The position numbers and the translations under genes are program-made. Source: Acinetobacter piscicola (GTDB lineage Bacteria > Pseudomonadota > Gammaproteobacteria > Pseudomonadales > Moraxellaceae). From it: DNA of 64,000 nt. Position 1 is the first letter of the stretch. Each line of letters opens with the position of its first letter. The stretch lies in NCBI RefSeq assembly GCF_002233755.1, contig NZ_NIFO01000022.1:1-64000 (forward strand), read 5' to 3'. This document shows positions 16,989 through 57,595 of the stretch, piece by piece. The notes beneath the pieces were generated by a model. That model had not been told where the DNA came from. It worked only from the letters and a program-made list of their open reading frames with translations, and made no database searches.

Positions 16989-18932
16989 TTAGCTATTTGC
17001 TTTAACCTCAGCAATCAACTGATCAACCACATTCGGGTCTGCCAATGTAGACGTATCGCCTAAACTGTCCAATTCAGCTGCCGCAATCTTTCTTAAAATA
17101 CGACGCATGATTTTCCCAGAACGAGTTTTCGGTAAAGCAGGTGCCCAATAAATTGCATCAGGTGTTGCAACAGGGCCTAATACCTTCCGAACCCAAGCGA
17201 CTAATTCCTTGCGTAACTCTTCGGTTTCAGCCTCACCTGCTTGTAATGTGACATAGGCAGCTATACCTTGTCCTTTAATCTCATGCGGCATACCGACCAC
17301 AGCAGATTCAGCGACTTTTTCGTGTGCAACCAAAGCACTTTCAATCTCTGCCGTACCTAAACGGTGCCCTGAAACATTCAAGACATCATCTACACGCCCT
17401 GTGATCCAGTAATATCCATCCTTATCTCGTCGTGCACCATCACCTGTAAAATACGTCCCCGGATAAGTTGAAAAATAAGCTTCAATAAACCGCTCAGGAT
17501 CTCCCCAAATTGTACGCATTTGTCCCGGCCAAGAGTCTTTAATGATTAAATTCCCTTCCGCCGCACCTTCAATTTCATGACCATCTGCATCGACTAAAGC
17601 AGGCTGAATACCAAAGAATGGACGCGTTGCCGAACCCGGTTTCAACGGTGTTGCACCTGGTAATGGTGAAATGAGAATACCGCCAGTTTCAGTTTGCCAC
17701 CATGTATCTACAATCGGACAACGGCTTTCACCCACAACTGTATAGTACCAATTCCATGCTTCAGGATTAATCGGTTCACCCACTGAACCCAATAGACGTA
17801 AACTACTGCGATCACTTTCTCGTACAAAAGCATCGCCCTCTCGCATCATGGCGCGAATTGCGGTCGGTGCTGTATAGAGAATTGTCACATTATGTTTATC
17901 AACAATATGTCCTGTCCGTGCCCATGTTGGGTACTGTGGAATACCTTCGGACATCACCGTGGTTGTACCATTTGATAGTGGCCCATACAGTACATAAGAA
18001 TGCCCTGTAATCCAACCCACATCTGCCGTGCACCAAAACACATCATCTTGTTTAATATCAAATACTTCACGGAATGTTGTGTTGACATAAGTCAAATAAC
18101 CGCCTGTGGTGTGTAAAACACCTTTCGGCTTACCTGTAGAGCCTGAAGTATAGAGAATGAATAATGGGTCTTCTGCATTCATTGCTTCGGGTGGGCAAAT
18201 GTCAGTAACCGTCATGATTTCCATGTGATACCACAAATCACGACCGTCTTTCATCGAAATTGGATGCCCTGTACGATGCACCACAATCATTTTCTCAACA
18301 GAAGACGTTCCATCAAGTGCTAAAGCCGCATCAACATTTTCTTTGAGTGGAATGGTTTTTCCACCACGCATCCCCTGATCCGCAGTAATCACCAACTTCG
18401 CTTGACTATCATCTATTCGACTTGCCAAAGAATCTGGGGAGAAACCACCAAAAACCACACAATGCACAGCACCAATTCGGGTGCATGCCAACATGGCGAT
18501 TGCAGCTTCTGGAATCATTGGCATATACAAAATAACGCGATCACCTTTTCCAATACCATTCTTTTTCAAGACATTGGCAAAACGGCAAACTTCATCATGT
18601 AATTCTTCAAATGAAATAATCTTATGACGGGATGGATGATCACCTTCCCAAATGATCGCAGGTTTAAGTGGATGTTCTTTTAAATGACGATCTAAACAGT
18701 TGGCACTGACATTGAGTTCACCATCCGCGAACCATTCAATTTTAAAATTGTCTTTGTCATAGCTTGTATTTTTAACTTGAGTAAATGGTTTCATCCATTC
18801 AAGTTTATTGGCAGCTTCTGCCCAAAAAGTATTTGGATCATCTATCGACTGCTGATAGCGTTCAAAATACTGTTGCTCATTGGTTCTTGCTGTTTTAACA
18901 AATTGCTCTGGAACTGGATAAATCTCATTCAT
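16989..18932 (-). CDS. acs: Acetyl-CoA synthetase
   Basis: The 647-aa enzyme activates acetate to acetyl-CoA through acetyl-AMP and is the high-affinity route of acetate use. The sequence follows E. coli Acs throughout: the adenylation P-loop [12 protein letters not shown], the WWQTETGG motif, the hinge [14 protein letters not shown], and the C-terminal [11 protein letters not shown] holding the lysine that protein acetyltransferases modify. The start at 18932 ([10 protein letters not shown]) has AAGGAAG seven nt upstream; the longer ATG at 18956 lies upstream of that site and is rejected. The gene is downstream of the candidate operator at 19044-19053 and is presumably activated by the CrbS/CrbR pair. 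Confidence 0.97.
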
Positions 18933-55949: not shown

Positions 55950-56768
55950 ATGATACCAAAGAGTAGCTATCCAAGTGATCAAAAAATTTTAAGAGTCGTA
56001 TCAATCAACGTAAATGGTCTACGTTCATCGGTTACCAAAGGACTTCTTGAATGGATGGAAAAGTCAGATGCAGACGTAATCTGCATACAAGAAAGTCGCA
56101 TTACCCATGAGCAATGGACAGATAAATTTAAACCCGAAGGTTGGTTTACCCATTTATTCCCTGCTGAAAAATCAGGCTATGCAGGCACGGCGATTTATAG
56201 TCGCTTACCGTTTAAATCTGTGCAAAATGGCTTAGGGTTTGAACTTGCAGACTCACAAGGTCGTTTTATTACCGCTGAGTTTGATCTAGGTTTAGACAAG
56301 CCTGTACATATTTGTTCTTTGTATTTACCTTCGGGTTCATCTGGTGATGAAGCTCAAGCACGTAAAGATCACTTTTTAGAAGAATATACAAAAATTTTAA
56401 AACAATGGCGTGATGAAGATAAATCCATCATCGTTTGTGGCGACTACAACATTGTGCATAAACGCATTGATATTAAAAACTGGTCAGGGAACCAAAAATC
56501 TTCTGGTTGTTTACCGCATGAACGCGCATGGTTAGATCATATTTATGATGATTTAGGCTATGTCGACACGTTCCGCGAAGTCCGTAAAGAAGCTGAAGTG
56601 TATTCTTGGTGGTCAAATCGTGGACAAGCACGTGCGAAAAATGTCGGTTGGCGTATTGATTACCAAGCGTGTTCACCAGATTGGAAAGCGCGTACTGTTA
56701 ATGCATGGGTTTATAAAGATGAATGGTATAGTGACCATGCACCTGTGGTCATTGATTATACAATATAA
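55950..56768 (+). CDS. crc: Crc/exonuclease III family protein
   Basis: A 272-aa EEP-family protein. Position beside pyrE and blocks such as SINVNGLRSSVTKGLLEWM, DVKNW-type DIKNW and YSWW identify it as the Acinetobacter Crc, a catabolite-repression protein that acts with Hfq in pseudomonads. Unlike Pseudomonas Crc, the nuclease residues appear intact: Glu48 (CIQESR), Asp165 and Asn167 (CGDYNIVH), Asp237 (WRIDYQ) and Asp262-His263 (YSDHAPV), matching E. coli ExoIII positions 34, 151, 153, 229 and 258-259. It may therefore be an active AP endonuclease, a regulator, or both. Confidence 0.85.
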   Translation: MIPKSSYPSDQKILRVVSINVNGLRSSVTKGLLEWMEKSDADVICIQESRITHEQWTDKFKPEGWFTHLFPAEKSGYAGTAIYSRLPFKSVQNGLGFELADSQGRFITAEFDLGLDKPVHICSLYLPSGSSGDEAQARKDHFLEEYTKILKQWRDEDKSIIVCGDYNIVHKRIDIKNWSGNQKSSGCLPHERAWLDHIYDDLGYVDTFREVRKEAEVYSWWSNRGQARAKNVGWRIDYQACSPDWKARTVNAWVYKDEWYSDHAPVVIDYTI

Positions 56769-56780
56769 TTTTCTAAAAAC

Positions 56781-56816
56781 CGCACATTGAGTTTACATAT
56801 GTAAACTCAATGTGCG
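56781..56816. repeat. 36-bp perfect palindrome between crc and the GGA-rich RNA
   Basis: Positions 56781-56798 and 56799-56816 are exact reverse complements with no loop; the centre is GTTTACATATGTAAAC. No T-run follows. It lies 12 bp past the crc stop and about 65-100 bp before the predicted small RNA, so it could be an operator for that RNA or a crc 3' structure. Confidence 0.8.
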
Positions 56817-56879
56817 TCAAATTCCTACAAAACTTGTCGTGTTATCTTATATTTTCATCATGCAAATAAGAGCATTATA

Positions 56880-57042
56880 GCTTCACGGCACAGGGACATT
56901 GTCAGGATGACAGCAAAAGGATAGGACGCCGTAGGATGAAAAGAAAATAAATATTTTATATTTGTTTTCCAAGGATGTGACATTGGACGTTGTACTGAGA
57001 CCCGCATAATCAGGATGATTTGATGCGGGCTTTCTCTTTTTT
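56880..57042 (+). ncRNA. Csr/Rsm-type CsrA-sequestering small RNA
   Basis: Eight GGA motifs lie in about 122 nt at 56894, 56905, 56919, 56924, 56934, 56973, 56985 and 57013. Two sit in hairpin loops: TGTC-AGGAT-GACA (56900-56912) and AATC-AGGAT-GATT within the terminator. ACGGC (56885-56889) pairs with GCCGT (56928-56932) to close the first domain. The RNA ends with a terminator, CCCGCAT (57001-57007) with ATGCGGG (57023-57029) then a T-rich tail. This is the architecture of RsmX/Y/Z and CsrB, which titrate CsrA. There is no ORF. The 5' end is approximate. Confidence 0.8.
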
Positions 57043-57247: not shown

Positions 57248-57595
57248 ATGCTTAAAATTTATGGAATCAAAAACTGTAACTCAATGAAAAAGGCTTTTGA
57301 CCTACTGACCGAACTCGGTTTGAACTACGAATTTCACGACTACAAGAAACAAGGGATCGATGCAGAAACGATCAAAGTTTGGTTAAAACAGATTCCACAA
57401 GATATTCTTTTAAATAAAAAAGGCACAACTTGGAAAAAACTCAGCGAACAAGAGCAACAACTTGCCCTTTCAAACCAAGAAGAGCTAATTAAAGCATTAA
57501 CTGCACATACAAGTTTAATTAAACGCCCTGTGATTGATCAAAATGGTGAATATGTAGTTGGTTTTGATGAAGACAAAATCAAAGCGTTGAAGTAA
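57248..57595 (+). CDS. ArsC/Spx-fold reductase family protein (YffB-like)
   Basis: A 115-aa thioredoxin-fold protein of the ArsC/Spx group. The motif YGIKNCNSMKKAFDLL places the conserved Cys at residue 9. The helix DYKKQGIDAETIKVWL and the terminal IKRPVIDQNGEYVVGF are typical of the YffB branch. True arsenate reduction is unlikely without ars genes nearby; glutathione-dependent thiol reduction is the family suggestion. ATG 57248 is chosen over an upstream ATG-less extension to 57191 because it aligns with the family N-terminus. Confidence 0.87.
   Translation: MLKIYGIKNCNSMKKAFDLLTELGLNYEFHDYKKQGIDAETIKVWLKQIPQDILLNKKGTTWKKLSEQEQQLALSNQEELIKALTAHTSLIKRPVIDQNGEYVVGFDEDKIKALK

Follow-up and report, generated by a model that had tools for sequence, protein, structure and literature searches.

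A probable Csr/Rsm-type RNA gene downstream of crc

The region between a crc-type gene and an arsC-like gene of Acinetobacter piscicola very probably makes a non-coding RNA of about 156 nt that sequesters CsrA, as judged from its sequence. The RNA gene is intergenic and lies on contig C13 of the 3.58-Mb genome, within the 64,000-nt stretch of DNA that was analysed as a whole (the window). Its predicted transcript spans positions 56885 to 57042 of the plus strand, based on a covariance model and an alignment of 24 copies, with the 5′ end deduced from the −10 hexamer. The model, which includes the window sequence among its rows, matches positions 56885–57040 with an E-value of 4.7e-35. An earlier note on this DNA had proposed a GGA-rich RNA at 56880–57042. 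The RNA gene is found there, while its start lies probably at about 56885 rather than 56880, given the conserved −10 hexamer and the start of the model match.

As the earlier note had counted, there are exactly eight GGA triplets in 56880–57042 (at 56894, 56905, 56919, 56924, 56934, 56973, 56985, and 57013). Dinucleotide shuffles of this segment have 4.8 GGA on average, and 2.8% of 5000 shuffles have at least eight. Thus, the bare GGA count is only moderately unusual. The extended motifs are the stronger signal: AGGA occurs six times in the RNA (1.19 in the dinucleotide shuffles), AGGAT five times (0.39), and CAGGATGA twice (0.008), and for each of them the fraction of the 5000 shuffles with at least the observed number was 0.0. 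On the plus strand of the 64-kb window, the RNA locus is the sole position group with eight GGA per 163 nt. A segment of the minus strand (17392–17577) also has eight GGA and lies inside a 655-codon open frame.

The same genome encodes one CsrA (91.8 bits). One UvrY/GacA-like response regulator stands out with 268.5 bits, just under the NCBIfam cut-off of 280, while the next one has 77.1 bits. An RNA of the Csr/Rsm functional class is expected to have several conserved GGA motifs, some of them in hairpin loops, and a csrA gene in its genome, and all of these were found. Such an RNA would also have a promoter and an intrinsic terminator of its own, for which the conserved −10 hexamer, the upstream element, and the terminator hairpin speak and the simple scans do not, and activation by a GacA/UvrY-type regulator through an upstream box, of which Acinetobacter keeps the right half. 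The assignment to the RsmZ/CsrB kind in the earlier note very probably holds for the functional class. It does not hold for membership in an Rfam family. The covariance search against the Rfam Csr/Rsm families that the note had proposed gave no match: no Csr or Rsm family was found among 4227 families, either in the window at the gathering thresholds or at the locus with E-values up to 10 (CsrB and CsrC included), and the RNA does not reach the gathering scores of PrrB_RsmZ (RF00166), RsmY (RF00195), CsrB, and CsrC. Of all Rfam families, only a manganese riboswitch (RF00080; 35747–35901, minus strand, 56 bits) reaches its gathering score in the window.

I found no second Csr RNA in this genome with the covariance model (one hit, E up to 10) or with a broader model (one hit, E up to 1), and the RsmZ model (RF00166) has no match in the whole genome with E up to 10. 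The RsmY model gave four sub-threshold matches (at most 19.3 bits, cut-off 57), three of which were viewed and rejected as gene ends, terminators, or coding sequence. A pattern of three successive AGGA matched 63 times in the genome, the RNA locus being one of the matches. After merging of overlaps, 45 of 56 matches lie in open frames of at least 100 codons and 11 lie outside. Among those outside, seven were viewed and eight were scanned with Rfam (a glycine riboswitch and a tRNA were found), and none of these resembles a Csr RNA; L240, L243, and L246, also among the 11, have three or four GGA in 170 nt. The control of the triple-AGGA scan is uninformative because the pattern is the same when reversed, and the scan could miss RNAs with fewer AGGA.

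Secondary structure and terminator

Both CAGGATGA motifs lie in hairpin loops, the second one in the terminator hairpin. RNAalifold with the 24 sequences predicted the terminator hairpin and a 5′ stem that encloses hairpin 1; two of the pairs have both-sided changes. In the 5′ closing stem (P1), ACGGC (56885–56889) pairs with GCCGT (56928–56932) by the consensus structure and covariation, and a compensatory change from GC to AU is seen at one pair in 2 of 50 rows. Hairpin 1 (56900–56912; TGTC-AGGAT-GACA) has both-sided changes at four of its five pairs in a 51-row alignment. An A/T-rich middle hairpin (56943–56969) comes from the fold of the window sequence; it varies in sequence and length between species and lies outside the consensus structure of the 24 sequences. 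The terminator hairpin and the following T tract (57001–57042) were defined by the alignment, the consensus structure, and covariation, and the loop AATC-AGGAT-GATT lies at 57008–57020. The strong terminator claimed in the earlier note is real as to its stem, CCCGCAT/ATGCGGG, which is identical in all of the 24 aligned copies. The claim is weakened by the T tract, which is interrupted (CTTTCTCTTTTTT), and by a simple terminator scan of the plus strand, which does not list this terminator.

The two GGAs that the earlier note had placed in hairpin loops are indeed in loops, with unpaired probabilities of 0.95 (hairpin 1) and 0.98 (terminator hairpin) in the window sequence. The six remaining GGAs lie in linkers with unpaired probabilities of 0.49–0.66, and stable hairpin loops hold only two of the eight. 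Over 650 GGAs in 78 sequences, the mean unpaired probability is 0.72, compared with 0.26 for other G residues and 0.51 for shuffled GGA.

The 51-row alignment, made from 50 loci chosen for diversity (sister genera included), was fitted to the structure, so that the following counts lean towards the structure: both-sided changes occur at 9 of 25 pairs in 60 cells, and 98.8% of the cells are paired. These three measures were matched by none of 500 shuffles, and the pairing falls to 30–50% when the partner is slid by one to three columns. For another measure, that of further pair types, 35 of the 500 shuffles reached the observed value. The fold of the window RNA is modestly more stable than that of its shuffles, with a z-score of −1.5 and 17 of 200 shuffles folding equally well or better; the mean z-score over 20 copies is −2.4.

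Promoter and upstream element

A conserved −10-like hexamer, CATTAT (56873–56878, plus strand, within GCATTAT), was found in the upstream alignment and by a tally. Its last base lies seven positions ahead of the RNA start, and a sigma-70 promoter scan does not list this promoter. A second conserved element in the alignment, CCTACA-N5-TGTCG (56824–56839, plus strand), is located about 62 nt upstream of the RNA; the form seen most often in the genus is CTTACA-N5-TGWCG. A regular expression for the element or a near form, which had been fitted to the element itself, matched 136 of 143 partly redundant upstream regions (135 at −62/−63 and one elsewhere), while the other seven have near variants of the element.

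The consensus of the GacA box is TGTAAG-N6-CTTACA. In its letters, the upstream element of Acinetobacter matches the right half of a box of this type; only this half is kept, and the columns of the left half are mixed. In sister genera, CTTACA or CGTACA forms the second half of a TGTAAG-N6-CKTACA dyad or of near variants (TGTACG, TGTAGT). The dyad TGTAAG-N6-CKTACA was found in G044 and G046/G061, and near variants were found in the loci of genus g25 and in G137. In G043, a perfect palindrome of the GacA type, TGTAAGCAAAAGCTTACA, lies upstream of an RNA-like stretch with ten GGA. A GacA-type regulator is probably the activator of the RNA gene.

When 41 genomes were searched with a promoter pattern, 9 of them had matches, 10 in all, and a reversed-pattern control gave two. 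By place or sequence, 7 of the 10 matches are the RNA's own promoter. The pattern called for TTACA and for 34 or more bases before CATTAT. The window carries CCTACA, and the bases before CATTAT number 33 in 55 of 102 distinct upstream regions and 34 in 20. Thus, the pattern excludes most of the RNA promoters, and the search says little on a wider regulon.

A repeat scan and the alignment showed a long inverted repeat (56780–56816) between crc and the upstream element. The aligned members of the genus share a recognisable TGAACA-n-TGTTCA-like core of this repeat. Since it mostly has no plus-strand T tract after it, the repeat may be a protein site and not only a terminator. In the window, it is terminator-like on the minus strand.

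Conservation within Acinetobacter

BLAST with a 206-nt stretch found the RNA in 24 of 25 Acinetobacter genomes, including that of A. piscicola (G014 is the missing one), and in none of 13 genomes from other families of the order. The 24 aligned copies are 153–161 nt in length and have eight or nine GGA each. The length differences are out of frame, which argues for an RNA element and not a coding sequence. All of the 145 loci that match a regular expression for the conserved ends have at least eight GGA (79 distinct sequences; the collections are redundant). This expression matched 91 of 98 named loci; three of the other seven are cut at the sequence end, three are full matches of the covariance model, and L140 is the RNA by eye. 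The 98 named stretches had been found with a pattern derived from the RNA, and 97 of them are titled Acinetobacter (A. baumannii, A. nosocomialis, A. pittii, A. calcoaceticus, and A. lwoffii among them) and one is titled Moraxellaceae bacterium.

When 299 genomes of the family were searched with the covariance model made from the 24 copies, 132 matched, 122 in the genus and ten in four sister genera. This is about 122 of the 126 genus members sampled, where 126 is the sum of the matching genomes and four listed genus members lacking a match, the genus being taken as the first in the list. The matching genus members have one model match apiece. G137, counted among the 122, has a weak match (38.7 bits) away from crc; the broader model gave 35.8 bits in this genome, likewise not after crc, with six GGA and a GacA-type box. 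The stretch after crc was read in G014, G065, G257, G301, G307, and G137, and the RNA is absent from it. In the first five of these, the broader model gave no convincing match elsewhere in the genome (20.7 bits in G307, which is chance-like, and no match in G014, G065, G257, and G301). These five seem to be natural losses, and thus the genus can do without the RNA. Among 244 sampled genomes of the order, the covariance model with strict filters matched that of A. piscicola and none of the 243 others.

The earlier note had made its proposal depend on conservation of the GGA loops in relatives. The GGA loops are kept across the genus together with the stems, the −10 hexamer, the upstream element, and the terminator, and all of these are recognisable in the sister genera too.

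Copies in sister genera

The sister genera have up to four model matches per genome, and the copy number varies. A copy after crc is also present in G046 (genus g23) and G044 (genus g21); G044 has model matches on four contigs, with crc on one of them. Thus, the crc-RNA neighbourhood is older than the genus, at least for these two; no direct regulation of crc is inferred from the position. G048 (genus g25) has a tandem pair of the RNA far from crc. The stretch after crc in G048 and G063 is divergent and shows GGA hairpins together with a hairpin resembling a terminator. The scores of these stretches in a 49-kb search are low (16.8 bits with E 0.051 for G048; 27.8 bits with E 0.0002 for G063), and a whole-genome search with the broader model recovered that of G048 (26.2 bits) and not that of G063.

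The RNA-like stretch of G043 with ten GGA (L262; C1:286480–286701), which the palindrome TGTAAGCAAAAGCTTACA precedes, starts with ACGGCACAGGGA like the Acinetobacter RNA, and its score with the broader model is only 19.9 bits (E 0.18). In G046, two further near-identical GGA-bearing stretches (L265, C68:46737–46874; L270, C2:3042–3191) have TGTAAGCATT(A/G)GCGTACA upstream. L265 and L270 are likely to be paralogues.

Neighbouring genes and probable function of the RNA

The upstream neighbour is a crc-type gene of the exodeoxyribonuclease III/Crc family (55950–56768, plus strand; NCBIfam and PDB matches), and the downstream neighbour is an ArsC/Spx-family gene (57248–57595, plus strand; open reading frame and family match). 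The two genes flank the RNA in all of the 24 loci, although the arsC-like gene is more distant in L007 and L017. NCBIfam assigns the crc-type protein to exodeoxyribonuclease III. In the PDB, its top match is 2jc5 (259.9 bits), a (putative) exodeoxyribonuclease and presumably the Neisserial enzyme, and the next one is a catabolite repression control protein (225.8 bits), which I take to be Pseudomonas Crc. The crc-type protein keeps GDYN and SDH where Pseudomonas Crc has GSLY and SQH. Since these nuclease residues are kept, the Acinetobacter 'Crc' may be catalytically competent. The gene is divergent from pyrE (NCBIfam TIGR00336), and in the excerpt of PMC8312277, Crc is implicated in the catabolite repression of Acinetobacter sp. 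SK2, and a reference title gives the order pyrE-crc-rph in P. aeruginosa. Because of the divergent pyrE and the study of Crc in Acinetobacter, the name crc is fair, and the position beside crc that the earlier note had reported stands, with exodeoxyribonuclease III as the NCBIfam name.

The constant place between two genes of the same strand would also suit an element in the crc 3′ UTR or in an arsC-like leader that binds CsrA in cis and is not a free sRNA. Such a cis element is improbable, as the conserved −10 hexamer and the upstream element lie directly before the RNA, the RNA ends in the terminator hairpin some 200 nt ahead of the start of the arsC-like gene, and sister genera have copies away from crc (on other contigs of G044 and as the tandem pair of G048).

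CrcZ and CrcY are sponge-type RNAs tied to carbon regulation, and the A-rich motif AANAANAA is the Hfq/Crc target motif of these decoys. The crc neighbour might point to a CrcZ/CrcY-like decoy for Hfq/Crc, but this has very little likelihood: of 145 loci, 123 lack AANAANAA, 19 have one copy, and 3 have two, while the GGA sites are present in 145 of 145, and another RNA, sRNA99, is likened to CrcZ in A. baumannii in the excerpt of PMC12802169. A CrcZ-like identity was rejected on this motif content, repeated AANAANAA being lacking. It is just as improbable that the RNA base-pairs with mRNAs through its GGA runs and has a partner other than CsrA, for although six of the eight GGAs are outside stable hairpin loops, the two CAGGATGA-type loops on covarying stems and the GacA-type box of the sister genera make up the usual set of a Csr RNA.

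As a CsrA sponge, the RNA would work as follows. CsrA dimers would bind to its GGA sites, two of them presented in stable loops and the others in mostly single-stranded linkers, and production of the RNA would draw CsrA off its mRNAs. A GacA-type response regulator would turn on the transcription through the CTTACA element. The 5′ stem P1 closes a GGA-rich domain, and the terminator hairpin holds one of the two loop GGAs. It is conceivable, though rather unlikely, that the Csr counter-regulation of Acinetobacter rests on this single RNA, that the GacA box has decayed, and that the placement after crc couples catabolite repression to the release of CsrA. If this were true, the extra copies of the sister genera would have been lost in Acinetobacter, the half site with the conserved TGWCG partner would mean a changed activator or binding mode, and the coupling to crc might occur, for example, via read-through or shared promoter control.

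Comparison with known systems

RsmY, RsmZ, and RsmX of Pseudomonas resemble the Acinetobacter RNA in size (133 positions for RsmZ and 121 for RsmY in Rfam, compared with about 156 nt), in having GGA in hairpin loops and linkers, and in the GacA-type upstream box. In contrast, the primary sequence and the locus differ, and the Acinetobacter RNA has one match per genome and has not kept the left half of the box. CsrB and CsrC of enterics share the CsrA sponge design, while the Acinetobacter RNA has no Rfam match; E. coli CsrB and CsrC have 18 and 11 CsrA sites, respectively, according to the excerpt of PMC7366521, as compared with the eight GGAs of the Acinetobacter RNA.

The earlier note knew of no established description of this RNA at this locus. 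This needs to be qualified, since CsrB/Rsm-type RNAs have been predicted for Acinetobacter, while in the parts of the sources at hand none of the predictions names the crc locus. PMC7366521 gives RsmX, RsmY, and RsmZ in square brackets for A. baumannii, citing Kulkarni 2006 and Cerqueira 2014, and also lists Fakhry 2017 among such predictions; in the portion seen, the brackets mean genome inspection only, and the Acinetobacter sponge RNAs are described as not experimentally characterised. Similarly, 'a CsrB-like small RNA' is drawn for A. baylyi in the excerpt of PMC12442408, citing Kulkarni 2006. The genus and the predicted role are the same as those of the RNA found here. As excerpted, Table 2 of PMC5568370 has two candidates of strain ADP1 whose gene orders are unlike crc-RNA-arsC on one strand. 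The prediction of Kulkarni 2006 may include the crc-adjacent locus. In the excerpts of the literature, no report of a Csr RNA at Acinetobacter crc or of its activity was found, and earlier prediction or transcriptome tables may list the locus. The excerpts of PMC12802169, PMC5538643, PMC9810633, PMC10325922, and PMC6158957 do not describe a Csr RNA at Acinetobacter crc, and the terms CsrA, CsrB, crc, GGA, and Rsm are all absent from the main text of PMC11472050. In summary, CsrA-sponge RNAs are known elsewhere and are predicted in Acinetobacter, and the crc-adjacent RNA is very probably another one, which lacks an Rfam match.

A. baumannii is reported to require CsrA for growth when cultured on rich media (PMC12802169, in part), and a truncation of csrA alters competence and vanillate growth in A. 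baylyi (PMC12442408, in part). The latter paper describes ISx, a derivative of A. baylyi ADP1, as lacking the insertion by which csrA is truncated. With a genus-wide locus, a structure, a promoter element, and a covariance model, the Gac-Csr circuit of Acinetobacter becomes directly testable. The current Rfam models do not find the RNA, and the covariance model would be a possible addition to them.

GGA-rich stretches beside csrA

The csrA locus of A. piscicola has at most four GGA per 160 nt. In one genome each of two other genera of the family, a GGA-rich stretch of about 260 nt is convergent into the 3′ end of csrA, which lies on the opposite strand. That of G041 (genus g18; L256, about 1378–1630) has 16 GGA next to csrA at 1631–1837, and that of G049 (genus g26; L260, about 1395–1655) has 15 GGA next to csrA at 1670–1867. 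Each stretch may be a sponge-like RNA adjoining the gene of the protein that it putatively binds.
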